64,000 bases of DNA, taken from contig NZ_JABXKP010000008.1 in the NCBI RefSeq assembly GCF_017114985.1, positions 62,001-126,000 on the forward strand, given 5' to 3'. Each line of letters starts with the position of its first letter. Position 1 is the stretch's first letter. This DNA is from Nostoc sp. JL33. Its GTDB lineage: Bacteria > Cyanobacteriota > Cyanobacteriia > Cyanobacteriales > Nostocaceae. Shown in pieces: positions 1 through 19,962 of this stretch. Under the pieces are notes generated by a model. The model was not told the DNA's origin. It made no database searches and saw nothing but the letters and a program-made list of their open reading frames with translations. Position numbers and translations under genes: made by a program.

Positions 1-299
<299 letters not shown>

Positions 300-518
300 T
301 TAATCGCCTTTTCCTATCTTCAGGATTTTACATCACTGAGTTGTACCAATATTTATTTTTGTAAATATAAGTTTAATATTTGGTAATAAATAAGCATTTA
401 AATCAAGGTTTCTAGATAACTTGTTTGCGAAATATTAAGCTCATATTCATCTTGATACTCAATGCTCACAGATAACTTTTAGGTAGGCGATCGCTGTTCT
501 TGTTTGTGAAGATTGTTC

Positions 519-3068
519 TTAATTTTCTAATTCGGCATCGTTAAAACACCACTCCTTGTGCTTTTCAGCTAATGAGAGAGGTAAAGGATACTCACATTCA
601 GCAGAAGTCCACCAATGACGGGATCTGAGATAGTGTGTAATTACATGATGAAGTTGAAATTTATCTGGTGATGGCGTTGCTAGGATATTGTGAGCGCGTG
701 GCTGCGGAGCTTTCCAATCTTTTCTTGGAGATGGATTGTGAGCATTATTTTTGATAATGCATTTGCCTGTTTTTGCATCACGTTTGTTTATTAATTTACC
801 ATCTTTGTTAGTTTCTTTTTCGTATGTTCTCGATATCCAAGCTTGATAACGGCTCATCTCCTTAGCTAATTTATTAGTATCAGACTTTTCAGCAATGCTT
901 AGGATAGTTTGAGTAAACCCAGTTACATCGCAATTTTGTGGAATGAAAATTCCTTTTGTAAAAGAAGCTGCACCTTTTATGAATGTTTCCTGTTTTGTCG
1001 CCAGTCCATATCCCTGTGGAACTTCATTGTTCATATTGTCACGTATACGAATAATGTGAATTTTGTTTGTCGGTGGTTTATCTGGCTCGAACTTGCTGTC
1101 TTGTAACCAAGTCCAATAGCTCCGAGCATTTTGACCGTGAACAAATAGATATATATCGTCAGCAGCAGAGTATGTCTGGCTCAATGTAGTCAGCATATTA
1201 CTGATAACTTGATCCCAATTAAGCTTAGATGTTCTGTGCTTTGCTAATTCGCAAATTGTATCAGGCATGGTTCTAAAATGCAGATCCCTCTGAGGTAATA
1301 ACACTCTGACTTCATTCTTATAAATTGCCACCACAATTGGCTCATTAAAACTTTGGCTTGCTGTTCTCTGGTTCCGCCGACTTACATACAAAGCAGCGTA
1401 GACGGTGTTATCGTCAGGAGTTGATAAAGGATAATTTAGGTCAAATGGCAAAATCGCATCCAAAATTGCAGCAAGAGCACGATTATAAAGATTCTGTTGC
1501 AAATCTTCGTCTGTTCTGGCTTCCCCAGTTTCATTATTATCTGCCTTCTCTGTGGACAAGATGCACTGAGGAATAAAATTATATTTAGGTAAAATAGATT
1601 TTAGATAAGGTTTTGGATCTTGATTACCACGATATCTAGGATGGTCTGGAGATAGAATTTCTACGATCATCGGCATTGGATGTTCGGGTTGATTCTGCTG
1701 CCCAAATTCTCGAATATGACGGTCAATGATAACTGTTCGACCGTTTCTTTCTATCTCTACTAGAGGATCGGCTAAACCTTCGGATGTATAAAACTCTAGA
1801 TTGAGACTGTCCCCAAAGTAATGCTTGGCAACTAATGCAAGAGCATCTCGGACTTCTTCTGTGCGGTAACGTACTTGAATAGTTAAGTTATTTGCTCGCT
1901 CAGTTAGGAAGACTTTTAATTCCTTTTCAATATTAGGAAGTTCATTTTTAGAAGATTTAGGTCTAGAAATGTTTGGCGTGTCCTTAAATCGTTGCTTAAT
2001 AGATTTTTTCAAATCCCCATCAACGGAAATCTTTTTCCAGGGAGCAGAAATTACTACGCTAGGTGGCAAAATATCTTTGATTTGTTCGAGTAATGTTCTC
2101 TCATCCTCAAAAGTAAATCCTGTTCCCCATCCTGCCTTCTGGTAAACTCGCGCCGGAACCAGAATATCTGTTTGGTCTGTTTCAAGAAAATTTAATGGGT
2201 TTGCCAAGACATCCGTTATGTTTGGAATTTCCACTGATAAACGTTCTAAAATTTGGTTGACCTGTCGGTTTTTCCATTGGGGAACATACTCACTTCCTTC
2301 CCGACGGTAATTTGCTTCCAGAACCGTGAAAGCATTTGGCTGTAGTAGGTTGTAGTCTCCTAGCCAAGATCGTAATCTGCGAACATAGCATCTTGTAGTA
2401 CGCTTCTCTAACCGAATATCTGAGTCCTTTCCTTGTTTAACTATCCAACGCTTCATCTGAAAGTGAAGGTTGATTTTTTTAGGATCTATATCACTTTGAG
2501 TTGATATAACAAGCGCCACAGATGCTCGATGACCATGTGCATTTGGAAATGGCGGCCAAGATACAAGTTCAACTGTATTTCCGCTTCTTCCTGGGCCAAA
2601 TAAAAACTTGAATGAATTTTCTCCTAGTTGATACTCGTGCTTACTTAGTTCCCAAGCGATCGCCCAAGAAGGTGCCCAAAATTCGAGATGATTAGGTGCT
2701 ACTTGAGTCCAATGAAACTGATCTACACTGCAATACGGTTTTAACGCTTCATGTTCTGATTCTGGGTAACATACTTCAACCCATCTCTTGAATATAAGAG
2801 CTAGAATCTCTGGGTCAACTTCTTCATAAGCCAGAAAAGTAGCGGGGTTTGGTTCGCCATTAACCGTCAAACTGTTGATGACCCGAATCTGTGGCAGTAA
2901 TAATCGGATCGTATTAAGTAATGAAGTTGTTGGGGCGTTTTCTTCAGGTTCTCCATAATGGGTATTAAATTTTTTTAAATTGGGAAACGGCATCACAAAA
3001 CCAGTGATATCCCTGACCAGTGCCTCTTTAAACTCAAGGTAGATAGGCTGATAGTAATTAATACTCAA
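519..3068 (-). CDS. pPIWI-RE family protein (prokaryotic PIWI with conserved R and E)
   Basis: 849-residue last gene of a three-gene operon; its ATG overlaps the stop of the helicase gene by 4 bp. It resembles the pPIWI-RE family: an N-terminal X-type region (about 1-380), a MID-like region around 390-545 (MVEILSPDHPRYR near 467-480), and a C-terminal RNase H/PIWI-like fold from about 550. Candidate signature residues are R674/R676 in IHIIRIRDN and E823/E825 in TSAECEYPLPLSL near the C-terminus. The first RNase H strand (YAALYVSRR, about 557-565) carries no Asp where slicer Argonautes have one, so cleavage activity may be absent. Family knowledge (Burroughs, Iyer and Aravind 2013, a computational study) suggests guide-dependent recognition of invading nucleic acid. 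Family call fairly sure; activity is inference. Confidence 0.8.
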   Translation of the reverse strand: MSINYYQPIYLEFKEALVRDITGFVMPFPNLKKFNTHYGEPEENAPTTSLLNTIRLLLPQIRVINSLTVNGEPNPATFLAYEEVDPEILALIFKRWVEVCYPESEHEALKPYCSVDQFHWTQVAPNHLEFWAPSWAIAWELSKHEYQLGENSFKFLFGPGRSGNTVELVSWPPFPNAHGHRASVALVISTQSDIDPKKINLHFQMKRWIVKQGKDSDIRLEKRTTRCYVRRLRSWLGDYNLLQPNAFTVLEANYRREGSEYVPQWKNRQVNQILERLSVEIPNITDVLANPLNFLETDQTDILVPARVYQKAGWGTGFTFEDERTLLEQIKDILPPSVVISAPWKKISVDGDLKKSIKQRFKDTPNISRPKSSKNELPNIEKELKVFLTERANNLTIQVRYRTEEVRDALALVAKHYFGDSLNLEFYTSEGLADPLVEIERNGRTVIIDRHIREFGQQNQPEHPMPMIVEILSPDHPRYRGNQDPKPYLKSILPKYNFIPQCILSTEKADNNETGEARTDEDLQQNLYNRALAAILDAILPFDLNYPLSTPDDNTVYAALYVSRRNQRTASQSFNEPIVVAIYKNEVRVLLPQRDLHFRTMPDTICELAKHRTSKLNWDQVISNMLTTLSQTYSAADDIYLFVHGQNARSYWTWLQDSKFEPDKPPTNKIHIIRIRDNMNNEVPQGYGLATKQETFIKGAASFTKGIFIPQNCDVTGFTQTILSIAEKSDTNKLAKEMSRYQAWISRTYEKETNKDGKLINKRDAKTGKCIIKNNAHNPSPRKDWKAPQPRAHNILATPSPDKFQLHHVITHYLRSRHWWTSAECEYPLPLSLAEKHKEWCFNDAELEN

Positions 3069-6000
3069 AGTTTCACTCCATGAATGAAATGGGTTAGTCG
3101 AGTTAGCGGGTAATAAACTGGCCCATACAGGGTTTTGATCAGCCTTCCAGAAGCACCACCTTTATTGATGGCGCTGCCCAAGAGCTTGCGGGCAGCCAAC
3201 AAAATAGAGTTTTGCTCCGAATCCCCAGATGAATTTCCCTTTGCGGTTTCTGGCATAAACGCGGCATCGACAAACCAGATAACTGTTTTGCGACCACCGC
3301 GAGTGCTACGTCCAATTAATTGAGTTAAATTAACCGTTAGCGTCCAGATAAGCGGCGTTTTGAGCGCAATTTTAGCGATTCTATCAGGTAATCGAGAGAA
3401 AATTTGCGGGATTGTCAGAAAAGTGTCTCGTGCATATCGAGCATGTCTCTGAATAACCTCGACGGATAGTTTGTCGATGATATCTATCGTTTCCTTATTA
3501 ACCCCACTGATAACTGTTTGATTATCATCTGGACTAGGGTGCTGTCTAACAGCAATCACCATACCACCAAAGTATGGTTCTCCAGTCAGGGGATGCATCA
3601 TGTTAATAGCACGAGATATAGCACCCATTGGCGCAATTAAAAACTCCTTACCACGACCTGGAAACTCAGTGAGTTTAGACCGGGAAACCTGATCGTCTGA
3701 AACCCAGCGACCATCTTGAACAACATAAGATGCCCTATCAAGATAGGGATTTTTTAGAGAATTGTAAAACGCCTTAGCTTCTGCATAGCTATTTGTCACA
3801 ATTAGCAGATTTTTGCGATCGCTACCGACGTTTGCTGCTAAATAATCTTGAAATTGCTCAAGTAGCGGCTTGCCTTGTTTGCTTTTACGGCAAAGTCCTG
3901 CAATCATCCGGCTAATGTTGTCCTGCCGATCATCTCCTTGACTACCGGAGATAAAGACAGGATTTCCTGCATCATCGACAACGGGGCAATAAAAGAATTC
4001 ACTGTCATGCGCTACCGCTTTAGACTTCTCAGGAGGCGGTTCGATTAACAAAGTTGGCTTTAATTGCACATGAAAAGGATATGATTGTTCAGTATCTCCT
4101 GAGTAACTAGTTGCTGATGTAACTAACAAATTTGCTGGAGTCAGCCCATCTATGCTGAAGATAGAATTCCATTGGCTTAGAAGTGACCTACCCAAGGCAA
4201 TCCCACGAAATATCCTAAGTTGTCTGTTGAGGAATTGAGCGCTAGTTACGGAACCAACAGGAGAATTAGGTAACAAGCTTTCAAAGTCACTGGGAGGGGT
4301 TATTGGTAAGGTAGATTCCAGGTCAACGCTAGCGTAACCTCTAGCCGATACGTGCTTACTTAATGCACCTAATACATGGGCTGCATAAATGGCTAGTTGC
4401 AGTAATTTAGCAAGGTTGTCTATGAAGCGCTCGACATCACATTCTAGTTGTTCAAATTTAATATCCCATCGCGTTGTTTGAATAAACTTTTTGCAGTTAG
4501 GATGGGGTACTGTAGTGAGCAAGTCTCCTGCTAACAATGCTCCAGAAACTAATGCTAAACGTTCTGCAATTACTGTGTCACTAGAGTTAAGACCAATGGT
4601 GTCAGGACTAACAAGATTATTTTGTATTCGCTTAAAGATTTCACGGTAGCGATCGTAGTTACGCTGATACTTAGATAAAGTTTGTTTTCGGACTTTGTTG
4701 GCACTACTTTGAACATGTGCTAATCCTGAAAGTTGTTCAGCCAATTTATCAAAAAATGTCCAAGCTGTAAACAATCTTCCTTCCTGGGTATATGCTTTTA
4801 ACAGTTTTTCAATTTCTTGACGGGAACTTTTACCTTTAATTGTGTTTGTAATATTTCTGATCAAATACATTAAAGCCCCAATTCCTCGGTTGGCTAAATG
4901 TCGTTGATCTTCTGACTGTTCTAAATAAGGATCGCGGTATCTCCCTGGCACAACCACTTCGCCTTCCATCAGACCATGTACATGTTGATAAGATTCAGTT
5001 CTTGTCCATGTATCTTGCAACAACTCGAAAGATGCAAGTGTCTCTGTAGGATAGAAAATTTCATCTAGCTTGGGTTGAGCAAGATCAACTTCATCAATAA
5101 TGAACAAATCTGTTGTTAGTGCCAAATATTCAAGAATGGTAATATTTTCAGTCAAATTGTGTGGGGCAACTTTCTTCTGAATAAACCCTTGTAAAGTTCC
5201 AATTATGAGTTGGGCATTTTCTAATGTAGTAGCTTTAATATGTCTGGGACAGACAGGAGCTATGGGACAACTGTAAACCTTATTCGGATCATTAACATCT
5301 TGTAGCTTGCCGAAGCATGGCGGTCTGCTGCGCTGACCATTTGATGTTTGTGGAATCTGAGGCTGTGCCAAGCTATACAATGGGCAGGATTGTGACAGCC
5401 ATTTAAAACCAGGATGGGTGAAAGGCTGCTGTTTGTTACTGAACATTACAGCCTGATTTAATCGGCTAAGGTGCTTATGTCGTTCCGATTCTCCAATAAT
5501 CGGAACTGCCCTGATCCCAACTTTTTGAGCAAATTCAAGCCAGTTCTGTACTTCACCTACACTATTTGTAGCAATCGCAACTCTTTTATTGCTATCTACT
5601 AAGAGTGCAACTAGGCAATCAATGAGGGTGGATTTGCCGCTTCCAGTCGGGCCTAAAATATGACCTTCTCCATCAATATAAATCTCTCTAGCTTCTTGAT
5701 CCTGTTGAATATCCCAATAGGTTGACTGATTAAGTATTTGCCCTGCGTCGTATCCTAAAATAGGTTTCAATTCAGTTCCTTTATTAATCAAATCAGCTAG
5801 GGGGATTTTGATGGACTGACGATCCTTGGAAAGATTAATGCTGGGAATTTGAGTGGCATACTTTACACCAGTATTGGCAATTTCTTCTGAAATTCTGATT
5901 GTGCGCGTCTGCTGTGGATTAATGTTGAACTCGTAGTCACCAGCCGGGGCTGGTCTGTATTTCGTTTGCCGAAACTTCAATGGCTCTTGAGTCAGCAGCC

Positions 6001-6397
6001 TTTCATATAGTTCATACCGAGCCAATGCCATCTTTTTAGTTGGCGTAATTTTGTTGCTTGGGTAGTCGATGTCAAAACCTAGCCAACCAGAAGCCGAACT
6101 TTTGGCAACGTCATCATAGCTACGGAGAGCAATTTCCCAGCTAATTGAACTACGGAATTCTGCCGCTAAATGGCGTAGATGCTTTAAGATATCCCACTGT
6201 GCATCTGTCGTACCTGGCTCTCGGTAGCCTTGCATCAGTAAATGTGCTTTCCGAATAGCTTGGTCAGGGAAATGAGTCCACAGAGTATGAAGCATTAATT
6301 CTGTACGGGCGAAATCGGAAAATTTCATCTCAATCGGTGGTGATTCACCTCCCATTGCCTTTTTTAGCGCCTCATTCAAAGTACTGCTATCTCTCAC
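3065..6397 (-). CDS. pPIWI-RE-associated DinG/XPD-like superfamily 2 helicase
   Basis: 1110-residue helicase, middle gene of the PIWI-RE operon, overlapping its neighbours by 4 bp on each side. Walker A is GPTGSGKST (249-257), Walker B is IIDEVD (433-438, DEVD where DinG usually has DEAH), and motif VI is QLIGRSTRGGR (about 1026-1036). Four cysteines lie between Walker A and B: C338, C361, C377 and C383 (SCPL, PCFG, SCPIAPVCP). This is the place where XPD/DinG helicases bind a 4Fe-4S cluster, so such a cluster is likely. The first ~240 residues have no recognisable motif and probably form the associated Z-type domain. Expected role: unwinding target DNA so that the PIWI protein and nuclease can act on it. 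Confidence 0.82.
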   Translation of the reverse strand: MRDSSTLNEALKKAMGGESPPIEMKFSDFARTELMLHTLWTHFPDQAIRKAHLLMQGYREPGTTDAQWDILKHLRHLAAEFRSSISWEIALRSYDDVAKSSASGWLGFDIDYPSNKITPTKKMALARYELYERLLTQEPLKFRQTKYRPAPAGDYEFNINPQQTRTIRISEEIANTGVKYATQIPSINLSKDRQSIKIPLADLINKGTELKPILGYDAGQILNQSTYWDIQQDQEAREIYIDGEGHILGPTGSGKSTLIDCLVALLVDSNKRVAIATNSVGEVQNWLEFAQKVGIRAVPIIGESERHKHLSRLNQAVMFSNKQQPFTHPGFKWLSQSCPLYSLAQPQIPQTSNGQRSRPPCFGKLQDVNDPNKVYSCPIAPVCPRHIKATTLENAQLIIGTLQGFIQKKVAPHNLTENITILEYLALTTDLFIIDEVDLAQPKLDEIFYPTETLASFELLQDTWTRTESYQHVHGLMEGEVVVPGRYRDPYLEQSEDQRHLANRGIGALMYLIRNITNTIKGKSSRQEIEKLLKAYTQEGRLFTAWTFFDKLAEQLSGLAHVQSSANKVRKQTLSKYQRNYDRYREIFKRIQNNLVSPDTIGLNSSDTVIAERLALVSGALLAGDLLTTVPHPNCKKFIQTTRWDIKFEQLECDVERFIDNLAKLLQLAIYAAHVLGALSKHVSARGYASVDLESTLPITPPSDFESLLPNSPVGSVTSAQFLNRQLRIFRGIALGRSLLSQWNSIFSIDGLTPANLLVTSATSYSGDTEQSYPFHVQLKPTLLIEPPPEKSKAVAHDSEFFYCPVVDDAGNPVFISGSQGDDRQDNISRMIAGLCRKSKQGKPLLEQFQDYLAANVGSDRKNLLIVTNSYAEAKAFYNSLKNPYLDRASYVVQDGRWVSDDQVSRSKLTEFPGRGKEFLIAPMGAISRAINMMHPLTGEPYFGGMVIAVRQHPSPDDNQTVISGVNKETIDIIDKLSVEVIQRHARYARDTFLTIPQIFSRLPDRIAKIALKTPLIWTLTVNLTQLIGRSTRGGRKTVIWFVDAAFMPETAKGNSSGDSEQNSILLAARKLLGSAINKGGASGRLIKTLYGPVYYPLTRLTHFIHGVKL

Positions 6398-7437
6398 TTC
6401 AAAACTCCCTTGACACGCTTAATTAATTCTGACTCTGAAAAAACAGGCAAATTTCCCTTATACCGACTTTTAAAAGCTGCTTGGTATGCTAAATTTGTCC
6501 ATCGGTAATCTGGGATTACAAAGAATGATTGAGATTGGCCAATATTTGGAATCGTATCTTGATTTAATTCTCTAGCTAACATGGTGGCGCTTCCCCAATC
6601 TTTCGCGTCAATTGCCCAAATATCTCCAGTCGGTAGTGTCACTTTCAAATCAGCCTTGTCTAGTTCTGGCCATAGTTCTACTTGCAATCCCATTTTTTCG
6701 AGAGTTCGAGCTAAACGCAATTCTATGAGGGAAGGTCTAATTAGGCAGATGACGGTATCTTCTATCGGTGCTCTATCTACTCGCCCTTCTAATGGTTCAC
6801 AACAGCCTTCGATATCTCGTGCGGCACAATCCAAATATCCACCGCAAGTCTTGCATAATGGCATTGACTCAGATTGCGGTGGTGCATCCCGATATGCTTG
6901 CATCAATAGGTCTAAAACTGGATCGATATCAGGATTATTAGAGCGAAATAAGGCAATTATTAAATCCGAAGGAAATGGGTTCTCAGCAATAAATCGACGG
7001 AAAAGTGTGTAGGTACTGTGGGGTAAGCTAAGTCGCTCAATTTCTGCCATTAGGCGTGGAATGTAGCTTTGATTCTGCTCTCGTTCCAAATTTAGTGCGT
7101 ATCTGCTAGCCCAAGCTTCGCATTCCTCTGAGGGGCGCGTCATATTTCCAATTAATGGGTCTTCAGGATAATCGACGAACTCGGAAAAATCTGGCTCAAC
7201 TGCCTCTACTGACTCTCTGGCCCCCTCAACCATACACAATATAGCTGGATGTCGCATTTCCTCATCCCGCAGTATCCATTTCAAGCTCAATCCTTGAAAT
7301 GCTTCATATAATGGCTGTGGAAAGGGTTGTGAGTCCTCGACTAGATAAGCTGGCTCACCTCGGTTGATGCGATCGCAAATCTGCACAAGTCCTTTACATA
7401 ACTTGATGAACAGAATTTCATCCTCACTGAATTGCAT
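6394..7437 (-). CDS. pPIWI-RE-associated PD-(D/E)xK endonuclease
   Basis: 347 residues, first gene of the operon; its last codons overlap the helicase start (ATGA). The C-terminal half looks like a restriction-endonuclease fold: D263 in KADLKV, then D277-A-K279 in AIDAKDW, with a preceding helix containing E239/E246. This matches the D...(D/E)xK catalytic pattern. A cysteine cluster (C195, C198, C204, C212, C213) precedes it and may bind zinc. The N-terminal ~180 residues are helical with no motif I recognise. In the family the nuclease is the likely effector cutting DNA marked by the PIWI-RE/helicase pair. The ATG at 7437 is followed by a plausible MQFSEDE start; the 150 bp upstream hold the operon promoter. 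Confidence 0.78.
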   Translation of the reverse strand: MQFSEDEILFIKLCKGLVQICDRINRGEPAYLVEDSQPFPQPLYEAFQGLSLKWILRDEEMRHPAILCMVEGARESVEAVEPDFSEFVDYPEDPLIGNMTRPSEECEAWASRYALNLEREQNQSYIPRLMAEIERLSLPHSTYTLFRRFIAENPFPSDLIIALFRSNNPDIDPVLDLLMQAYRDAPPQSESMPLCKTCGGYLDCAARDIEGCCEPLEGRVDRAPIEDTVICLIRPSLIELRLARTLEKMGLQVELWPELDKADLKVTLPTGDIWAIDAKDWGSATMLARELNQDTIPNIGQSQSFFVIPDYRWTNLAYQAAFKSRYKGNLPVFSESELIKRVKGVLK

Positions 7438-7529
7438 ATCTAGGCTTTTATATAGAGATATTGACCGTTATTTTAATACGTTTGAACTAGTTTTAAGACT
7501 TTAAAAATATTTATAATTACGTTATTCTT

Positions 7530-7566
7530 AATCGAGGCGGACAAAATTTTTGTAGTCACCTCGATT
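7530..7566 (-). terminator. Hairpin downstream of sdhA
   Basis: Perfect 8-bp inverted repeat AATCGAGG/CCTCGATT around a 21-nt loop, just after the sdhA stop on the minus strand. It lacks a strong U-tract, so it may be a weak terminator or only an mRNA-end structure. Confidence 0.35.
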
Positions 7567-7588
7567 TCTCGCATAAATTTACTTTTGG

Positions 7589-9316
7589 CTAATACTTCCG
7601 CTCTTTTGGCTCAAACATAGTAATTGCCACCGGTCGATATTGAATATCAATTCCTGCTGGTGAATAGTAAGCCATTGTGTGTTTCAGAAAGTTGCTATCA
7701 TCTCGCTGGGAATAATCTTCGCGGAAATGAGCGCCACGACTTTCTTGGCGATTCAGGGCTGATGCCAAAATAGTTTGTCCCACTACCATCAAACTTCGCA
7801 ATTCTAAGGCTTCCACAAGTTCGGTATTCCAGCAACTACCTTTGTCATCTAAATAAATTTGAGGATATCGCTGTTGTATTTCTTCTAGTTTGTGCAACCC
7901 TTCACTCATTAATGCCTCAGTGCGGAAAACGCCACAGTACTCAGTCATACAATCCTGGAAGGCTTGACGGACATGGTTAATGCGATACTGCCCTGGTTGT
8001 TCTAGCAAAGCTTGAATTTGTTGCTGGGCTTCCGTTATATACCGTTGCTCATCTACAGAAGGCAACTTACGTTTTTGGACAAATTTTGCGATCGCAGCTC
8101 CAGTTCTCTTGCCATAAACGACACATTCCAGTAGTGAATTACTCCCCAAGCGATTCGCCCCATGTACGGAAACACAAGATGTTTCGCCAGCAGCAAAGAA
8201 AGCATCAACTAAACCATCGCCACTACTACGGACTTGCCCATCAGTATTAACTGGGATACCACCCATACAATAGTGAATTGTCGGACGGACTGGCATCGGT
8301 TGAGTCACAGCGTCAACGCCTACTAGACGGTGTGCTTCTTCCCAGCAGAAGGGAACGCGACTCATAATTTTTTCTTTGCCCATGTGGCGTAAATCCAGAT
8401 ACACAAAGGGACCACCAGCACTACCATCGAGATGAACACCACGACCGGCGCGAATTTCGTAAGCGATCGCTCGTGAGGTAATATCACGAGGAGCTAGTTC
8501 CATGCGACTAGGTGCATAGTTCGCCATAAAGCGATCGCCTTCACTATTTATCAGATACGCCCCTTCTCCCCGTACCGCTTCTGAAATTAGTACCCCTACC
8601 GGATATAAACCAGTGGGATGAAATTGGACAAATTCCATATCTTCAAGGGGCAAACCTGCGATCGCAGTCATTGCCAAACCATCACCAGAAGAAGCGTAAT
8701 CATTAGAGGTGGTATTATAAACGCGACCATAGCCCCCTGTGGCAAACATCACCGCCTTGGCTCGCACCACCTCTATATGTCCATCCAAAAGATTGAACAT
8801 TACCACACCCTTGGCCTCATTTTCTTCTAAAATGAGACGCATCACATACCATTCTTCATAAACTTGCACCCCATAACGCCGCAGGTTGTTAACCAATTCG
8901 TGCAAAATCGCGTGACCGGTCTTATCGGCGGCATAGCAAGTGCGGTTGTGGGAATGTCCCCCAAAAGCTCGTTGAGCAATGCGACCATCGGGTAAACGAG
9001 AGAACAAAACGCCCATGTGTTCCAAGTCAATCACCACATCTGGCGCTTCTTGGGCGAGGATTGCCACAGCATCTTGGTCTGCCAAGTAATCAGAACCCTT
9101 GACAGTATCAAAAGCATGTGCTTCCCAACTATCTTCGGAATCAACATTTTTCAGCGATGCAGCCATACCACCTTGAGCCGCAACCGAGTGGGAACGAATT
9201 GGGTGGGTTTTCGCAACCACAGCAATATTTAAACTGGGGTCAATACGGGCAATTTCCACAGCAGCGCGACATCCTGCTAATCCACCCCCGACAATAATCA
9301 CATCATGTTCCAGCAT
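7589..9316 (-). CDS. sdhA: Succinate dehydrogenase/fumarate reductase flavoprotein subunit
   Basis: 575 residues using the ATG at 9316 ([12 protein letters not shown]); an upstream in-frame start at 9340 only adds eight unlikely residues. The protein carries FAD covalently and oxidises succinate (or reduces fumarate) at the membrane, feeding the cyanobacterial respiratory chain. Visible motifs: the FAD-binding [12 protein letters not shown] near residue 10, the flavinylation site HSVAAQGG near 43-50, and the catalytic region with [13 protein letters not shown]. No iron-sulphur (sdhB) or anchor subunit lies beside it, which is common in cyanobacteria where sdh genes are dispersed. Length is typical of the family. 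It is probably monocistronic. Confidence 0.93.
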
Positions 9317-9413
9317 AATTAGCCCCCGACTGCAAACCACTGCTGTTCTATTGTAGAGATGTGATTGTGATTAATGAGGCGGTGCGTTGCGATCGTTGCT
9401 GTGGACTCTCTAC

Positions 9414-9440
9414 AAAAAAATTCCCTGCCTATAGACAGGG
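9414..9440 (-). terminator. Rho-independent terminator of the 9584-9904 gene
   Basis: On the minus strand CCCTG...CAGGG (5-bp stem, 8-nt loop) is followed by a run of T (plus-strand A-run at 9414-9420). It lies between the small membrane protein gene and sdhA, so sdhA is probably transcribed separately. Confidence 0.5.
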
Positions 9441-9469
9441 ATCTGATTACAAATTTTGAAATTAGGAGT

Positions 9470-9582
9470 TAAAAGTTAAAAATCAAGAGTTATGGGACAG
9501 ATTGAGTGACTCATAACTCTTAACTCCTAACTCATAACTCCTAACTCCTAACTCATAACTCCTAACTCATAACTCCTAACTC
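9470..9582. repeat. Heptanucleotide short tandem repeats (aactcct/aactcat)
   Basis: Alternating aactcct and aactcat heptamers fill the spacer before the small membrane protein gene. The same heptamers recur near 11870-11900 and 29002-29030. This is the STRR type known from Nostoc-like genomes. Confidence 0.8.
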
Positions 9583-9583
9583 T

Positions 9584-9904
9584 TTAGCTAGTTGCTTGTA
9601 CAGGTTGTTGCTGAGACACATTACCTGGCATGGGTTCCATTTTGGTTCCAGGCCCTATAGGCATAACTTCAATATGATTTAATAAGGTAGTGACAAACGC
9701 AAACAACAAGAAAGGTAGCGATAGCAGAACGACGAGACCCGCAGTTGCTAAAGCGTACACGGGTCGCTTGGCACCCATTAGTGCCAAGGCTGAGGCCAAA
9801 CTTAGGGTAATTGTAATTAACCAAACAATTATTTGACCGTAGATATCACCGAAAGTCAGGGTACAGACAAACCGATACTTTTGAATATCATTTTCGTTCA
9901 TCAC
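9584..9904 (-). CDS. Small two-helix membrane protein, unknown function
   Basis: 106 residues (105 if the second of two adjacent ATG codons is used). Two hydrophobic segments (about 25-45 and 50-75) separated by GAKRPVYA suggest a two-span membrane protein with a polar, Pro/Gln-rich C-terminus (PMPGNVSQQQPVQATS). I do not recognise the family. A terminator follows at 9414-9440 and a tandem-repeat block lies immediately downstream. Codon use and length suggest a real gene, but no homology can be claimed. Confidence 0.6.
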   Translation of the reverse strand: MMNENDIQKYRFVCTLTFGDIYGQIIVWLITITLSLASALALMGAKRPVYALATAGLVVLLSLPFLLFAFVTTLLNHIEVMPIGPGTKMEPMPGNVSQQQPVQATS

Positions 9905-10570
9905 ATTTGCCTCAAGTCTCTCCTAATAGGTTCTACGTTAGAACCATGTTTGCCTTCTAGAGAATTTCTAAATATTTTTGCAAGCTTTGTAATATCACTT
10001 TACAATCAAGCTTTTTTGTTACAAAGCACAATTCCTATTACAGTATGGCGTAAATAGACCAACCATATCCTACCGGAAGCCGTTGTTCTGTAGTCGCCGC
10101 GGCTGTGTAGCAAGTTTTCAGAGCAGGGATACCGATAACGCTCCTATGCCCCTAATGCTGACGCTCGGTCGCACAGCGTTTCATAGAGAAACAATACTAG
10201 CTGAGGCAATGTGCAACTTCATATTCTGACCTCTCTCCTTTTTTGAGACGATAGAGTTATAATTCTGTCGTTCCAATTAATATAATCGCCCTCTAGATGC
10301 GATCCTCTTAACTAGCCCCAGCAGTTGACCTCCTCAACAAATAGACTCTTTGCTTAAAGCCAAGAGAATTTTTGTCATCTGTCAAATTTCGGATATTCAC
10401 AATAATATAGTATTTAATTTTTTGCTGGTAAATATTAAGTAGATAAATCCAGCAAACTCAGGATGCAAAAACCGATTTATTGATGTTAAATTTTGAGTAT
10501 TGCCCGAATTTGTTGAATTAACTCAACAAAACTCTTTATTTTTCGTGGCAATATTGTTTTAGGAGTGAAT
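9905..10570. other. Non-coding stretch upstream of the surface protein gene
   Basis: About 660 bp between divergently read genes. It is AT-rich from 10380 on and must contain the promoters of both neighbours. Around 10130-10190 there is repeat-like sequence (gctcctatgcccctaatgct region). I see no convincing gene. Confidence 0.5.
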
Positions 10571-11440
10571 GTGGATACTATTTTTCTTCGTAAAGGTGTT
10601 TTTTGGTTGCCAAGTATAGCTGCTCTTGCAGTCCTGAGTAGCGGCTTATCTGCAAGTGGCCAGACAGTGGACAAGGTGAGCAGTCAGCCATTAACCGAGC
10701 CTTCCGCAACCGTAGCCTCTCCCAACGAGTTTAGTACAGAACTAGACACTGCAAGCCAAAATCTCTCTACACAAACAACTGAAACATTTACAGTTACAAA
10801 TTTAACTAAAGTACAGCAGTTGCCCGACACTCCGATACAGCAAAACGCCAGTGTAACAACCACACCCGTTCCAGGCACAGTGGTAACCTCATCTGCGACG
10901 CTTACCTCTGAGTTTGTACAACCTACTTCTCAAACTACTTCTCAAACTACTTCTCAAACTACTTCTCAACCATCTGCTCCCAGAGTGGCGCAATCGGATA
11001 TTAATTTAGGTACAACTACCCGGGGTGGCAGCAGCTATATTGGCGTCGCTGCTAACATTGGTTTGAGTGGTGATGCGGACTCCTCTTTGGCCGACGGTAA
11101 CTTCGCGGTAGTCAGCAAAATCGGGCTGACAAATGCTATATCGGTACGACCCTCAGCCGTATTTGGTGACAACACCACAATTCTAGTTCCGATCACCTAC
11201 GATTTTTCCTTCAAGTCAGCAGATGCTTTTAGCGAACCGTTAGCGATCGCACCTTACGTCGGAGTGGGTGGAGCTTACAAAACTGGTGATGATTCGCAAT
11301 TTGCCTTTTTAGTATCTGGTGGCATTGATGTGCCTCTAACTCCTCAATTTACTGCAACAGCTGCTGTGAATGCAGGATTTTTCGATAAAACTGATGTGGG
11401 CTTGTTGTTAGGAGTTGGTTACAATTTCACTGGGTTTTAA
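10571..11440 (+). CDS. Secreted/outer-membrane beta-barrel-like protein
   Basis: 289 residues from the GTG at 10571, preferred over the GTG at 10565 because AGGAG (10561-10565) sits 5 nt before it and overlaps the earlier candidate. It has an N-terminal hydrophobic signal segment (GVFWLPSIAALAVLSSGLSA). A low-complexity Ser/Thr/Gln linker follows with four tandem TTSQ units, and then a C-terminal domain of alternating strands rich in Gly and aromatics (GGSSYIGVAANIGLSG ... GVGYNFTGF). Ending in an aromatic residue is typical of outer-membrane barrels. Probably an envelope protein; exact function unknown. Confidence 0.65.
   Translation: MDTIFLRKGVFWLPSIAALAVLSSGLSASGQTVDKVSSQPLTEPSATVASPNEFSTELDTASQNLSTQTTETFTVTNLTKVQQLPDTPIQQNASVTTTPVPGTVVTSSATLTSEFVQPTSQTTSQTTSQTTSQPSAPRVAQSDINLGTTTRGGSSYIGVAANIGLSGDADSSLADGNFAVVSKIGLTNAISVRPSAVFGDNTTILVPITYDFSFKSADAFSEPLAIAPYVGVGGAYKTGDDSQFAFLVSGGIDVPLTPQFTATAAVNAGFFDKTDVGLLLGVGYNFTGF
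10924..10972 (+). repeat. 12-bp tandem repeat inside the surface protein gene
   Basis: Four copies of acttctcaaact coding for TTSQ repeats in the linker of the surface protein. Copy number is likely to vary between strains. Confidence 0.8.
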
Positions 11441-11903
11441 AACTTAGGAGTTAGGAGTTATATCAGGTTCGGTTAAACACTTATAATATCTGTAGGTTGG
11501 GGAGCCACTGCGTTGGGCGGCTCTGCCGACTTGTTCGCGTAGCGTCTCCGACAGGAGAAGCATGTTGCGTTTGAGGAACGTAACTTGCTTCCCGCAGGGT
11601 AACCCAAAATTGATCCATGTTCATGTTGGGTTTCACTGCCGTACCCCTACAATACAAGCAAGCTACAACCCAACCTACATTGATAGATTTTATTATAAGT
11701 AATAACCCCAACTTGATATTAACGCCGTGTGCAACTTTCTCTCAAACCTAACCTCCAGCCCCAACCCTTGTAGGAACGGGAGTAAGAATCAAAGCTTCTT
11801 AGGACTGAAGGAAAGGTTTGCAAAGGGGTTTCACGAATAATTTGCACATCCCGTGAGTTAGTAATGTTTCATTCATAACTCTTAACTCCTAACTCCTAAC
11901 TTT
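11441..11903. other. Intergenic region with dispersed cyanobacterial repeats
   Basis: No gene supported. It contains palindromic repeat pieces (gcgtagcgtctccgacagg near 11537 and cttgcttcccgcagggta near 11584-11601). The second recurs inside the degenerate tRNA-Ser at 18150-18179. An aactcct STRR ends the region at 11870-11900. Confidence 0.6.
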
Positions 11904-13226
11904 CTACTTGGGGGTAACTTTATCAATTACCTTGATTTTGCCATCGTCTCCTACTGTCCAAACATCGTAAACACCGACGACATCGCCGTTAGCATCAACA
12001 TCTACGTTGCCACTGGCTCCTTGGTAGTTAATCTTCTTACCATCTTTAAGTAACTTCAGTCCCTCGCAGACATCGGTAACTTCTGTGCCAGGCCCATCAG
12101 CCACTTCACGGATTTTGCTGGCTATGCCAACACCTGTATTTTCTTTAGCGGCTTGTGCCGCCAATGTCAATAAGGCAGCCGCATCCCAAGCTTGAGGAGC
12201 GTATTCTCCTGGCGCACCACCCTTTTTATCCTTCCACAGCTTGTTGAAAGCTTCTAGTGCTTTACCATTGGAACCGGGTACTGTACCGATCGCTCCAGTT
12301 AAAATATATTTACCATCACTGCCTTTGCCAACTTGTTCTGGGAAAGTAGGTGATTTTACCCCATCTGTAAGCAAAATCTGTACACCCTTAGCCACACCTT
12401 GCTGATAGGCGGCTTTCAGGAACAGACTACCAGTTTCAGCGTACAGTACAGCTAGGACTGCATCTGGCTTCCCAGCAAAAGCAGCAGCCGCTTCTGTATC
12501 AAATGTCTGGGCTTTCGGGTCGTAACGGACAGGTTTATCTTTATTAACAATGGTTCCACCCAATTTTTCAAAAGTTTGCACAAATGCTTTTTCAAAGCCA
12601 ACGCCATAGTCGTTATTAATCACGACTGTAGAAACTCGCTTAAAACCTTTTTTATTAGCAAGTTGGGCTAAGGCTAGTGCTTGGTAGGTATCGGGGGGAG
12701 CAGTACGCGCCCAAAAGCCTTTAAAGTCGCCTTTTTGGGCCTTTTCGGTAAAGACGGGACTGGTACTACCAGGGGAAACCAGCATGACTTTATTCGGCGT
12801 GGCAATGGAGACTGCTGCACTAGAAACGCTACTGGCAAAGGAGCCAACTACACCTGCTACTTTATCTAAAGTTGCTAGTTTGGTCATACCGGCAGCACCA
12901 GCTCTGGGATCGGTTTGGTCGTCTACTTGCACCAAGTTCACTGGTTCGCCATTCACCCCACCGCAAGCGTTTACGGTATCGACGAGTAAAGGGACAGAAC
13001 CTAGCATCTGCTGTCCAACAGAAGCCAAATCACCTGTTGTCGGTAGCAGGGAACCAATTTTTAGTCCTTGAGCAGTGCTTACGGTAGTTGAGTTTGCTGC
13101 TGGGGTAGCGGTACTTCCGGTGTTAGCTGTGCCATTGGGGGTATTAGTATCACCACAAGCCCCAACTAGGAACCCAATTGCTAGGGTAGCTATACTGAAG
13201 GTTAAAGCGGCGCTAATTTTTCTCAT
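11904..13226 (-). CDS. ABC transporter substrate-binding lipoprotein, branched-chain/neutral amino acid type
   Basis: 440 residues with a lipoprotein signal peptide: a hydrophobic stretch ending in the lipobox LVGAC (Cys 24). A low-complexity Thr/Asn/Ala linker precedes a periplasmic-binding fold of the Leu/Ile/Val type (LKIGSLLPTTGDLASVGQQM; NGEPVNLVQVDDQTDP; VINNDYGVGFEKAFVQTF). It captures a small solute, most likely amino acids, for an ABC importer. It resembles NatB of the cyanobacterial N-II neutral amino acid system, but permease and ATPase genes are not adjacent, so the substrate is inferred. Probably monocistronic. Confidence 0.85.
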   Translation of the reverse strand: MRKISAALTFSIATLAIGFLVGACGDTNTPNGTANTGSTATPAANSTTVSTAQGLKIGSLLPTTGDLASVGQQMLGSVPLLVDTVNACGGVNGEPVNLVQVDDQTDPRAGAAGMTKLATLDKVAGVVGSFASSVSSAAVSIATPNKVMLVSPGSTSPVFTEKAQKGDFKGFWARTAPPDTYQALALAQLANKKGFKRVSTVVINNDYGVGFEKAFVQTFEKLGGTIVNKDKPVRYDPKAQTFDTEAAAAFAGKPDAVLAVLYAETGSLFLKAAYQQGVAKGVQILLTDGVKSPTFPEQVGKGSDGKYILTGAIGTVPGSNGKALEAFNKLWKDKKGGAPGEYAPQAWDAAALLTLAAQAAKENTGVGIASKIREVADGPGTEVTDVCEGLKLLKDGKKINYQGASGNVDVDANGDVVGVYDVWTVGDDGKIKVIDKVTPK

Positions 13227-17816: not shown

Positions 17817-17906
17817 CCCAACACGCATTCAAGTTGCATATTAGCTAATAGCTAAAATTGCATTCCGTAATTTTGAATTTTGAATTTTGAATTTTGAATT
17901 GTTTAG

Positions 17907-17977
17907 TGGGTGGTATAGGGGTCGAACCTATTTCTGCGGGTTAAAAGCCCGATGCACAGCCGTTATGCCAACCACCC
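17907..17977 (-). tRNA. tRNA-Lys(TTT), array unit
   Basis: Acceptor GGGTGGT/ACCACCC is perfect; the loop CTTTTAA gives TTT; the anticodon stem is 4 bp (CGGG/CCCG). At 71 nt it is slightly short. Last unit of the array in transcription order. Confidence 0.75.
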
Positions 17978-18054
17978 TTGTTAATTTGAAAAAGAAATGA
18001 GCAAGTGCGATCGTATTACATCGCAAGCTTTGTAACACCAACAACAGATATAAA

Positions 18055-18126
18055 TCCACCAGGGAGGTACTGCCCCTCCTATTTCTGTGTTATCAGCACA
18101 GCGCCTCGCTTTTCGGCTTCAGGTGG
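18055..18126 (-). tRNA. tRNA-Ile(GAT)-like, array unit
   Basis: Anticodon arm CTGTG-CTGATAA-CACAG gives GAT. The T stem GGAGG/CCTCC is perfect but the loop GGCAGTA departs from TTCRAAT. The acceptor has six of seven pairs (T-T mismatch). Possibly a pseudo-tRNA. Confidence 0.6.
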
Positions 18127-18132
18127 AAAAAG

Positions 18133-18234
18133 AGGAAGATGGAGGAATCGTAGCTTGCTTCCCGTAGGGTACCCCTACAGTTGCCCGTACTCCAAGGTTC
18201 AAGCTTGGTTGCCGTCCATTCAGCAGCATCTTCC
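18133..18234 (-). pseudogene. tRNA-Ser(TGA)-like unit disrupted by a repeat
   Basis: Perfect acceptor GGAAGAT/ATCTTCC and anticodon arm CCAAG-CTTGAAC-CTTGG (TGA). It is 102 nt long, and the variable/T-arm region contains the dispersed repeat gcttgcttcccgtagggta (18153-18171). No T arm can be drawn. Confidence 0.6.
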
Positions 18235-18241
18235 ATTCAGG

Positions 18242-18316
18242 GGTATCTGACGGGGCTTGAACCCGCTATGACTGGTTCCACAAACCAGCGCCTCGACCAC
18301 TTTGGCTTCAGATACC
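18242..18316 (-). tRNA. tRNA-His(GTG), array unit
   Basis: Eight acceptor pairs GGTATCTG/CAGATACC include the extra G-1 to C73 pair expected for tRNA-His. The anticodon loop TTGTGGA reads GTG. Confidence 0.85.
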
Positions 18317-18321
18317 ATCAG

Positions 18322-18395
18322 TGGAATCAATGGGACTTGAACCCATAACCTCCTGCTTGCAAGGCAGGCGCTCTATCCATTTGAGCTATGACCCC
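18322..18395 (-). tRNA. tRNA-Ala(TGC), array unit
   Basis: Anticodon arm CCTGC-CTTGCAA-GCAGG. The acceptor GGGGTCA/TGATTCC uses two G-T pairs (G3 and G4 facing T), so the usual G3-U70 wobble of tRNA-Ala is retained. Discriminator A. Confidence 0.85.
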
Positions 18396-18507
18396 ATCAA
18401 ATAAGTAAAAAGAGCAAAGTAAAACTAAAAAGAAAGAGAAATAATTAAATTCATTCTTTTGATTTTTGACTTTTAACTTTTGACTTTTGACTTTTGACTT
18501 GTTTAGG

Positions 18508-18581
18508 CGGGAGTGGTAGGACTCGAACCCACAACTTTCGAGGTAGAAGCTCGAAGCTCTATTCCATTGAGCTACACTCCC
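18508..18581 (-). tRNA. tRNA-Arg(TCT), array unit
   Basis: Anticodon arm TCGAG-CTTCTAC-CTCGA reads TCT (AGA/AGG). Perfect acceptor GGGAGTG/CACTCCC. A 112-bp spacer rich in gacttttt-type repeats separates it from the Ala unit. Confidence 0.85.
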
Positions 18582-18590
18582 AATATTTGG

Positions 18591-18663
18591 TAGTCCTGGC
18601 AGGAATCGAACCCGCAACATTCTTCTTGTAAGAAAGACACTCTACCAATTGAGCTACAGGACT
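18591..18663 (-). tRNA. tRNA-Val(TAC), array unit
   Basis: Acceptor AGTCCTG/CAGGACT is perfect, loop CTTACAA gives TAC, canonical T-loop TTCGATT. 73 nt. Confidence 0.85.
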
Positions 18664-18668
18664 ACGCA

Positions 18669-18739
18669 AGCGAGTGGAGGGACTTGACCCACGCACTGAG
18701 TATGGCGTACTCAGATGCTACCGATTACATCACACCCGC
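18669..18739 (-). tRNA. tRNA-Gly(GCC), atypical, array unit
   Basis: Anticodon arm TGAGT-ACGCCAT-ACTCA has C at position 33 instead of the nearly universal T. The T-loop is also atypical. Acceptor GCGGGTG/CACTCGC pairs. Function doubtful. Confidence 0.65.
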
Positions 18740-18747
18740 AAGTTCAG

Positions 18748-18818
18748 AGCGGACGGCGAGATTTGAACTCGCACGAAGACGTTGGAAGCGTCTCATGCTG
18801 CCGTTACATCACACCCGC
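18748..18818 (-). tRNA. tRNA-Gly(TCC), array unit
   Basis: Anticodon arm AGACG-CTTCCAA-CGTCT gives TCC. Acceptor GCGGGTG/CGTCCGC contains two G-T pairs. The 5' half is nearly the same as the adjacent Gly(GCC) unit, suggesting local duplication. Confidence 0.82.
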
Positions 18819-18826
18819 ATTAGTCA

Positions 18827-18899
18827 AGCTGGTAACAGGAATTGAACCTGTAACCTACTGATTACAAATCAGTTGCTCTGCCAATTGAGCTACACCAGC
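18827..18899 (-). tRNA. tRNA-Thr(TGT), array unit
   Basis: Anticodon arm ACTGA-TTTGTAA-TCAGT gives TGT. Acceptor GCTGGTG/TACCAGC; T-loop TTCAATT. 73 nt. Confidence 0.82.
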
Positions 18900-18910
18900 A
18901 CTAATTTTGG

Positions 18911-18994
18911 TGACGGGGGCAGGAATTGAACCTGCCGATGTTCAGGTTATTTCGCCTTCAAAGGGCGCTATGTTGCCAATTACACCACAGGGCT
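18911..18994 (-). tRNA. tRNA-Gln(TTG)-like degenerate unit
   Basis: Loop CTTTGAA gives TTG with a 4-bp stem CGCC/GGCG, and the T arm GCAGG-TTCAATT-CCTGC is sound. The 5' strand (AGCCCTG) does not pair with the 3' strand (CCCCGTC), and about 11 extra nt sit in the variable region. CCA is encoded. Probably non-functional or chimeric. Confidence 0.45.
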
Positions 18995-18996
18995 TT

Positions 18997-19071
18997 ATTG
19001 CCAGGGCAGGGTTTGAACCTGCAACCTCATCGTTCAGAGCGATGCGACTTACCAATTCGTCCACCCGGCAA
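18997..19071 (-). tRNA. tRNA-Gln(CTG), array unit
   Basis: Anticodon arm CATCG-CTCTGAA-CGATG gives CTG. Acceptor TTGCCGG/CTGGCAA starts with a T-A pair as is usual for tRNA-Gln. Confidence 0.8.
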
Positions 19072-19078
19072 TGAATGG

Positions 19079-19150
19079 CTGCCTCAGTAGGACTCGAACC
19101 TACAACCGCGCGGTTAACAGCCGCTTGCTCTACCATTGAGCTATGAGGCA
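19079..19150 (-). tRNA. tRNA-Asn(GTT), array unit
   Basis: Loop CTGTTAA gives GTT; perfect acceptor TGCCTCA/TGAGGCA; canonical T-loop TTCGAGT; discriminator G. Confidence 0.86.
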
Positions 19151-19156
19151 ACGAAG

Positions 19157-19231
19157 CCCCCCAGGTCGGAATCGAACCGACGACCTCCTGTTCTTCAGAC
19201 AGGCGCTAACTACCAACTGAGCTACCGGGGG
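19157..19231 (-). tRNA. tRNA-Phe(GAA), array unit
   Basis: Anticodon arm CCTGT-CTGAAGA-ACAGG gives GAA. Acceptor CCCCCGG/CTGGGGG; canonical T-loop. The 3' neighbour base is G rather than A. Confidence 0.85.
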
Positions 19232-19252
19232 ATAAAATAAGAGATCATGCAA

Positions 19253-19327
19253 CGAGAGCGGAGGGATTTGAACCCTCAAATCTTCAGTTTCGTAGACTGA
19301 GATGTTATCCAGTTACACCACACTCTC
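19253..19327 (-). tRNA. tRNA-Arg(ACG), array unit
   Basis: Anticodon arm TCAGT-CTACGAA-ACTGA gives ACG, which needs A-to-I editing for full decoding. Acceptor GAGAGTG/CGCTCTC. Confidence 0.83.
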
Positions 19328-19331
19328 AAGG

Positions 19332-19421
19332 CGGAGAAGACAGGATTTGAACCTGCGACGGATATTAACTACCCGTTTCCTCTTAGCAGGAGGACGCTTT
19401 GGGCCACTCAGCCACCTCTCC
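19332..19421 (-). tRNA. tRNA-Ser(GCT), array unit
   Basis: 90-nt class II tRNA; arm TCCTC-CTGCTAA-GAGGA gives GCT; acceptor GGAGAGG/CTTCTCC. The first 18 nt equal the isolated tRNA-Ser at 13419 but the anticodon arm and the rest differ. Confidence 0.85.
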
Positions 19422-19425
19422 ATAA

Positions 19426-19508
19426 TGGGTCGAGCAGGATTTGAACCTGCGTGCAAAAAAGAACAGTTTTACAGACTGTCGCCTTCAGCCAGACTCGGCC
19501 ACCGACCC
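19426..19508 (-). tRNA. tRNA-Tyr(GTA), array unit
   Basis: 83-nt class II tRNA with arm ACAGT-CTGTAAA-ACTGT (GTA) and a long variable arm; acceptor GGGTCGG/TCGACCC. Confidence 0.85.
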
Positions 19509-19515
19509 ATAATCA

Positions 19516-19587
19516 TTCCCTCGACGAGAATTGAACTCGCATCTGTGCTTTGAAAGAACACTGACTTAACCATTCGTCCACGAGGGC
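19516..19587 (-). tRNA. tRNA-Glu(TTC), array unit
   Basis: Loop CTTTCAA gives TTC. The acceptor lacks the first pair (G1 opposite A72). The sequence is very unlike the isolated tRNA-Glu(TTC) at 26663, so it is not a recent copy of it. Confidence 0.75.
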
Positions 19588-19644
19588 ATAATTTACAGAA
19601 TTTTAAATTTTTTGATCTAAAATCCAAAATCCAAAATTGTCTGA

Positions 19645-19716
19645 CGCAGGGACTAGGATTTGAACCTAGAACATCGGATTTGGAGTCACGAGGTGTTACC
19701 GTTACACCATCCCTGC
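19645..19716 (-). tRNA. tRNA-Trp(CCA)-like degenerate unit
   Basis: Perfect acceptor GCAGGGA/TCCCTGC and a normal T arm. Loop CTCCAAA would give CCA, but the flanking stem (CGTGA/TCCGA) forms only two pairs. The identity is therefore uncertain and the unit may be inactive. Confidence 0.5.
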
Positions 19717-19722
19717 ATTTGG

Positions 19723-19795
19723 TGGCAGTGGCGGGATTTGCACCCGCATATACCAGGGTATGAACCTGGGGCTTTGCTAATTAAGCTACGCTGCG
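19723..19795 (-). tRNA. tRNA-Met(CAT)-like, array unit
   Basis: Arm CCAGG-TTCATAC-CCTGG gives CAT. The 5' acceptor strand CGCAGCG mismatches at the first pair (C-C) and at one inner pair. CCA is encoded. It could instead be a lysidine-type Ile tRNA. A HIP1 site overlaps its 5' end. Confidence 0.65.
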
Positions 19796-19805
19796 ATCGC
19801 ACCAA

Positions 19806-19878
19806 AGGCTGAGGTGAGATTTGAACTCACGATATCGGTTTTGCAGACCGACGCCTTCGACCACTTGGCTACTCAGCC
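19806..19878 (-). tRNA. tRNA-Cys(GCA), array unit
   Basis: Arm TCGGT-CTGCAAA-ACCGA gives GCA. Perfect acceptor GGCTGAG/CTCAGCC. 73 nt. Confidence 0.86.
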
Positions 19879-19884
19879 ATTTGG

Positions 19885-19958: not shown

Positions 19959-19962
19959 ACAA

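Follow-up and report, generated by a model that had tools for sequence, protein, structure and literature searches.

A divergent three-gene pPIWI-RE island between sdhA and por in Nostoc, whose PIWI protein appears to have lost its nuclease site

The window analysed here is a 64,000-nucleotide stretch (G000:C88:62001-126000) of the 7.1 Mb genome of Nostoc sp. JL33, and it contains a compact block of three genes for a nuclease (REase), a DinG-type helicase and a PIWI protein. Judged by profiles and gene order, this trio is a three-gene pPIWI-RE island. Such islands were predicted in 2013 by Burroughs, Iyer and Aravind (PMC3702460), a link that the original prediction for this DNA, made from the sequence alone, had rightly drawn. 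The kind was thus already described; the branch is new.

Gene organization and family assignment

The three open reading frames (ORFs) are intact and are found head to tail on the minus strand between 519 and 7437, in the order REase, DinG helicase, PIWI (Table 1). REase and DinG share positions 6394-6397, and DinG and PIWI share 3065-3068, each overlap being exactly 4 bp. The flanking genes are on the same strand, sdhA upstream (NCBIfam NF004613, 1210.8 bits) and por, which specifies the light-dependent protochlorophyllide reductase, downstream (TIGR01289 LPOR, 541.2 bits); of the latter, the window covers its first 94 codons only. The ORFs and NCBIfam agree in this with the original prediction, which had placed a nuclease, helicase and PIWI trio with 4-bp overlaps on one strand between por and sdhA. 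The same gene order is common to the 24 intact trios tabulated, this one included and other bacteria among them, in a table of loci picked for completeness in which gene order is no independent count. It omits the broken loci, those cut by a contig end and a Hymenobacter locus, where two ORFs separate DinG from PIWI.

Four Pfam families exceeded their curated cut-offs: pPIWI_RE_X (PF13111, 5.6e-24) and RNaseH_pPIWI_RE (PF13032, 9.5e-21) on the PIWI protein, pPIWI_RE_Z (PF18155, 1.3e-33) on DinG, and pPIWI_RE_REase (PF18154, 1.3e-27) on the REase. Of the families that had been put forward as a check, only MID_pPIWI_RE (PF18157) fell short on the PIWI protein, at 2.4e-5 and 25.1 bits just under its cut-off of 26.6. 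The pPIWI_RE_Y family (PF18156), expected before the REase, was also under its cut-off (0.0012; 19.7 bits, 26.7 required). With PADLOC the hits were PprPIWI (4.5e-90, full-length), PprDinG (5.1e-99, 330.7 bits) and PprRE (2.7e-19). Pfam and PADLOC identify all three proteins, and the claim of a complete three-gene system stands. NCBIfam listed no family for the PIWI protein or the REase, and Pfam and PADLOC at E ≤ 0.1 listed no APAZ-nuclease partner (DUF4365, SMEK, HNH) for any of the three proteins. Among solved structures nothing rose over noise for PIWI with the single sequence (best E 0.37) and none was found by profile; PDB chains gave nothing convincing with the REase profile (best E 0.18), and with the DinG profile the matches as far as an E of about 0.01 were P-loop proteins, RecA and reverse gyrase among them.

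The REase is built of a Y-like helical part, a zinc ribbon with C195 and C198, and a C-terminal PD-(D/E)xK nuclease, and has no long N-terminal extension. Residues E239, P257, D260, D263, D277 and K279 are invariant in all 20 aligned REases, as are the two zinc-ribbon cysteines. The helicase motifs, counted over 16 aligned DinG proteins, are likewise intact (Table 1). Because these active-site motifs are invariant, the nuclease and the helicase look functional.

A clade with altered PIWI residues

In a DinG tree of 28 rows the island falls into a clade of five loci, the others being G033, G159, Nostoc CHAB 5715 and Nostoc TH1S01 (contig G072). The clade has a support of 100/100 and a stem of 1.71 changes per site, and the nearest row outside it is 3.5 away; since the branches are long its exact neighbour is uncertain. 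The DinG of the window is 20-27% identical to the 13 aligned DinGs from outside the clade.

The pPIWI-RE family is named after an Arg and a Glu that its founders called absolutely conserved (Burroughs, Iyer and Aravind 2013, PMC3702460). We aligned 30 PIWI rows, the five of the clade and 25 others. Azospirillum ramasamyi (whose ORF ends too early), the fragments L080 and L082 and an N-terminal piece from L087 were left out, and the rows are non-independent, L079 and L092-L095 being near copies; the row of Calothrix PCC 7716 is poorly aligned. The Arg is retained, at 674 in 5/5 clade rows and 24/25 others and at 676 in 5/5 and 23/25. At the Glu column four clade rows have Ala and one has Ser, compared with Glu in 23 of the 25 others (the remaining two have Asp, in Microvirga, and Phe, in Calothrix PCC 7716). 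One MAFFT run placed this column opposite H793; a profile alignment, and also a bigger MAFFT run bridged by the row of L084, placed it opposite A792. As neither residue is acidic, the loss of the Glu is independent of the choice of column, and a profile built without the clade also sets a non-acidic residue there.

The catalytic positions of the RNase H fold have changed as well. At the strand-1 and strand-4 positions, taken as the first and second catalytic Asp, all five clade rows have Tyr and His, respectively. Among the other 25 rows Asp is found once at strand 1 and 15 times at strand 4, where four rows have Glu and two have His. In this alignment the loss of the strand-1 Asp is general among these trios, and the clade of the window is without the second Asp too. 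Its PIWI protein therefore appears to have lost the nuclease site. The original prediction had remarked on neither this nor the absent Glu. The proposal that the nuclease cuts and the PIWI protein binds fits these residues, the REase site being intact and both positions of the PIWI Asp pair changed. Since profiles and gene order fit and the Glu of the strict 2013 residue definition is missing, we would label the trio a variant branch, neither a canonical member nor a new category.

Distribution and integrity

At E ≤ 1e-3 the PIWI protein matches 11 of the 192 genomes of the family, four over their full length (77-100% identity, its own genome included) and seven weakly or in part. Among 386 cyanobacterial genomes the REase family occurs in 14, the PIWI RNaseH family in 12, and a DinG match in 15, its own included.

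Integrity was judged by ORFs in the 21 trio loci that do not run off a contig end; L080, L081 and L096, which do, were excluded. Fifteen are intact and six are broken (L027, L028, L082, L084, L087 and L094), with sequence at the DinG-PIWI junction missing in three of these (L027, L028 and L084). Within the clade the window, G033 and G159 keep the three ORFs unbroken; the CHAB 5715 locus is broken by a junction deletion, and that of TH1S01 by a frameshift in the REase and a DinG-PIWI fusion. In the latter locus (L028 7394-12550; Nostoc sp. TH1S01 metagenome-assembled genome, JAGKSW010000072.1) a C-terminally shortened DinG is fused in frame to PIWI as an ORF of 1718 amino acids beside the frameshifted REase, for which an assembly error is possible.

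When 72,556 plasmid and 50,697 phage records were searched by tblastn, the PIWI protein had no match at E ≤ 1e-3. DinG matched 25 plasmid records and no phage record, and the REase matched eight plasmid records, all of these plasmid matches being below 60% identity. The DNA of positions 1-9500 had no near match among plasmids, and two scans of viral contigs, sensitive to close relatives only, found none. A plasmid or phage origin of the branch was rejected on these plasmid, phage and viral-contig searches. In four of the 12 plasmid regions viewed a related trio lies near a DNA methyltransferase gene. On the Bradyrhizobium and Microvirga plasmids (L099 8652-14631 and L103 8675-14643) the PIWI-RE gene runs into a very long ORF, annotated at about 9-10 kb, that may be a fusion.

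The chromosomal site

In the clade, four loci (the window, G033, G159 and CHAB 5715) have the trio between sdhA and por; in the fifth, TH1S01, it follows sdhA, and por was not found within 10 kb beyond. Fifty-two other genomes of the genus were searched with sdhA, of which 48 were examined, G180, G537, G556 and G557 being omitted because of contig ends. None of the 48 has the trio after sdhA within the 0.6-9.1 kb stretches available. In 26 of them por is downstream of sdhA on the same strand at a distance of 0.24-2.8 kb, in two it is on the opposite strand, and in 20 there is none in reach.

The cargo of the 26 sdhA-por gaps was sorted by similarity and one member of each larger group was run against Pfam and PADLOC. 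A protein of 132-156 amino acids, present in 10 gaps, matched PADLOC PD-Lambda-2_B (1e-18) and nothing in Pfam; another family occurs in seven gaps, and its likely homologue in L059 matched nothing. Three gaps hold a protein with TIR and pterin-dehydratase domains, three a protein that is weakly YbjN-like (under the cut-off), and one an AAA plus OLD-TOPRIM/DUF4276 pair; the rest contain some singletons or no ORF of 100 amino acids. Part of this cargo is not defence genes. Two cases may be placed on record: in L066 (1850-3735) the cargo is an AAA_21 and DUF4276/OLD-TOPRIM pair, and in L067 (2015-2908) it is a fusion of TIR and pterin-4a-carbinolamine dehydratase domains, with similar proteins in 3/26 gaps.

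In the closest trio-less genome, G186 (L069), homology to the window ends at 7523 and restarts at 341. Among seven trio-less loci the sdhA-side end is at 7523-7524 in three, and on the por side homology restarts at 293-341 in all seven. The block thus probably reads as an insertion, the comparison with relatives having been put forward as a check; G186 carries about 465 bp of other sequence at the place of the trio, which is no clean empty site, and loss with replacement in the relatives would look alike.

Synonymous divergence (dS) from G033 spans 0.33-0.53 in the trio and reaches 0.74 in sdhA and 0.94 in por; from G159 it is 0.81-0.86 for the trio, 1.23 for sdhA and saturated for por. That trio dS is below sdhA dS in these pairs suggests exchange of the trio by recombination through its flanks, and it speaks against shared vertical ancestry as the sole cause of the fixed position. 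Relative to CHAB 5715 the values run from 0.04 (REase) up to 0.26 (por). With TH1S01 they are alike (DinG 0.87, PIWI 0.78, sdhA 0.88), and recombination is not evident for every pair. The ratio of nonsynonymous to synonymous divergence (dN/dS) of the trio is 0.07-0.15 against G033 and G159, PIWI included, 0.11-0.16 against TH1S01 (DinG and PIWI), and 0.16-0.23 against the close, broken copy of CHAB 5715. All three genes are under purifying selection.

A hairpin just past the sdhA stop lies outside the block and is probably the sdhA terminator. Its fold z-scores in four loci are -1.8 (the window), -3.4, -3.0 and -5.8, that of the window being only mildly better than shuffles, of which 11/200 fold as well. 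Over the whole window Rfam returned tRNAs only, all beyond 13 kb; repeats within positions 1-9500 are weak, and promoter-like and terminator-like counts are not above those of shuffles. A guide source or noncoding RNA at the locus was rejected on these scans, with the hairpin tentatively assigned to sdhA. Upstream of the REase (7438-7520, minus strand) G033 has a direct repeat, TTCAAAC-TGG-TTCAAAC, the first half of which is TTCAGAC in G159 and TH1S01; the window keeps the second half only. This repeat is possibly an operator or part of a promoter. Elsewhere the window holds a cytochrome c-550 gene, which together with por clearly marks the host as cyanobacterial, and, at 17906-20037 (minus strand), 19 tRNA genes in 2.1 kb as called by ARAGORN, one with an irregular anticodon call. 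The array resembles the long trn operon of Anabaena PCC 7120, which there is on a megaplasmid (PMC10272220).

Further pPIWI-RE loci

The same genome has a second complete trio, L077, near a spore-photoproduct-lyase-like gene. It agrees with the window in its three genes and their order, and differs in belonging to another branch, a different subfamily in the tree, with the Glu present and Asp at strand 4. Its REase has 500 amino acids, with an extra N-terminal part, compared with 347 in the window, and its DinG matches PprDinG with 1061.6 bits versus 330.7. A third locus, L179, is a relic with a complete PIWI gene and only the last 358 amino acids of DinG; no REase was found there. Its PIWI protein is 88% identical to that of G090, and a PLDc-ResIII gene adjoins. 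G033 matches the PIWI RNaseH family a second time, in part, at G033:C1:4396679-4396969 (in L180).

Table 1. Positions of the genes, motifs and other features; entries are in the window unless a further locus is named.
Feature	Position	Strand	Remarks
REase gene	6394-7437	-	347 amino acids, ATG start; ORF reading
DinG-type helicase gene	3065-6397	-	1110 amino acids, GTG start; Z domain N-terminal
PIWI gene	519-3068	-	849 amino acids, TTG start; X domain, MID, RNase H-fold PIWI domain
PIWI Y561, RNase H strand 1, taken as first catalytic Asp	1386-1388	-	alignment; putative correspondence
PIWI H644, strand 4, taken as second catalytic Asp	1137-1139	-	alignment; putative correspondence
PIWI R674-x-R676, conserved Arg of the family	1041-1049	-	alignment
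PIWI A792, family-Glu column	693-695	-	alignment
REase active-site stretch, D260/D263 to D277-x-K279	6601-6660	-	alignment; codon positions from reading frame
Helicase Walker A, G249 to K255	5633-5653	-	G249, G254, K255 invariant 16/16
Helicase four-cysteine (Fe-S type) insert, C338, C361, C377, C383	5249-5386	-	invariant 16/16
Helicase Walker B, Asp435-Glu436	5090-5095	-	invariant 16/16
Helicase motif VI, R1030 and R1033	3299-3310	-	invariant 16/16
Probable inserted block	about 342-7522 (~7.2 kb)	.	comparison with trio-less relatives
Hairpin past sdhA stop, outside block	7530-7566	-	fold z-scores
L077 (G000:C46) PIWI	2283-5417	-	
L077 (G000:C46) DinG	5420-8833	-	
L077 (G000:C46) REase	9045-10547	-	
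L179 (G000:C100) PIWI	8157-11126	-	
L179 (G000:C100) DinG remnant	11151-12227	-	

Comparison with known systems

With the islands of 2013 the trio shares its gene order, the DinG helicase with a Z domain and Cys-rich insert, the PD-(D/E)xK REase with zinc-ribbon cysteines and the X-MID-RNaseH architecture of PIWI. It differs in the clade-wide Ala or Ser for Glu and in the change at both positions of the Asp pair, and its REase does not have the N-terminal extension that is annotated in relatives as a MerR or Fis regulator. Unlike those islands it is chromosomal, beside sdhA, and its PIWI protein matched no plasmid record. A further point in common with them is that its direct neighbours, sdhA and por, are no methylases. 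The R-loop-like guides attributed to the 2013 paper correspond to it in part: it proposes the sensing of invader DNA-RNA hybrids (R-loops), and RNA guides are mentioned in its abstract (PMC3702460).

In the open-licence literature we found one assayed PIWI-RE protein, PsPIWI-RE of Pseudomonas stutzeri (PMC10991935); PMC7641849 was dropped as a source, its passages saying "Piwi-related". As in the window, the PsPIWI-RE gene overlaps dinG by 4 nucleotides and is clustered with dinG and a nuclease gene. Its cleavage is abolished by D525A or D610A and survives R639A and E718A. Judging by order and approximate spacing, we infer that D525 and D610 are the two columns occupied by Y561 and H644 in the window, where PsPIWI-RE has both Asp residues and cleaves; its E718, replaceable by Ala with activity retained, is opposed to A792. 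Deletion of PsPIWI-RE lowered ciprofloxacin survival about 15-fold and gave filaments, from which its authors infer a role in replication (PMC10991935). The nuclease-associated short prokaryotic Argonaute TmuRE-Ago (PMC10810196) is alike, as we read the trio, in pairing an Argonaute-like sensor with a separate nuclease; it belongs to a different family, has a DUF4365-APAZ partner, and no helicase is mentioned in the abstract of that paper.

Function of the island

The reading that we favour, with belief and doubt in about equal measure, is that the trio is an intact pPIWI-RE island from a divergent branch and works against invaders, the REase cutting what a nuclease-dead PIWI protein recognises. 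The PIWI protein, its nuclease site lost, would use its MID and PIWI domains to bind a DNA-RNA hybrid or a short guide, and would serve for recognition only. The DinG-type helicase would open, or move along, the DNA or R-loop, and the REase, which is the sole member of the trio with an intact nuclease motif, would cut the DNA. In its favour we count the Pfam and PADLOC families, the rarity of the DinG match, the clade-wide Tyr and His at positions whose presumed Asp counterparts PsPIWI-RE needs for cleavage (PMC10991935), the invariant REase residues and intact helicase motifs, the low dN/dS, the methyltransferase genes near related trios on plasmids, and the absence of the block from the gap of relatives, a variable site that elsewhere in the genus holds cargo such as the AAA plus OLD-TOPRIM/DUF4276 pair or the TIR protein. 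Several points weigh against it: the PIWI protein found no plasmid or phage match, the missing Glu breaks a feature that the founders called absolutely conserved, the PIWI residue assignments rest on alignment, and the PsPIWI-RE deletion phenotype was read by its authors as a role in replication (PMC10991935).

That phenotype is an argument for a part in genome maintenance, in which the trio would resolve R-loops or help to end replication, DinG unwinding hybrids and the REase processing intermediates. DinG helicases act on R-loops (PMC3702460), and one chromosomal neighbourhood has been kept, sdhA-por in four of the clade loci and after sdhA in the fifth. The trio is dispensable, however, because it was not found after sdhA in any of the 48 genomes examined, as far as the 0.6-9.1 kb stretches extend; its presence is patchy, with 6/21 loci broken, and some of the other cargo of the gap is defence-like. 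We regard genome maintenance as unlikely. The same broken loci would fit a costly nuclease, as expected of abortive immunity, where target binding by PIWI would switch on the REase for unspecific destruction of DNA instead of on-target cutting. The division of labour is that of TmuRE-Ago, which breaks down DNA unspecifically once it has recognised its target by an RNA guide (PMC10810196), but the REase has no listed APAZ or DUF4365 match and the helicase suggests processive action on the target DNA; this too we think improbable. It is very improbable that the changed Glu and PIWI catalytic residues mark a decaying remnant without function. Two of the five clade loci are indeed broken (CHAB 5715 and TH1S01), yet the other three retain intact ORFs, dN/dS is 0.07-0.15, and the changed residues are common to all five clade rows.

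Returning to the anti-invader island, we would go one step further only tentatively, and with more doubt than belief, in suggesting an "R-only" class: a PIWI sensor that does not cut, with a guide platform rebuilt without the Arg-Glu pair, spread between genera by homologous recombination at the sdhA-por gap and not by plasmids.

A clade that is under selection, and is apparently without both the catalytic pair and the eponymous Glu, would separate recognition from cutting in this family. The REase would then be the effector, and what the Arg-Glu pair does could be tested in a naturally occurring variant. With a relic and two complete trios from separate branches, this one strain may likewise serve as a natural test of redundancy.

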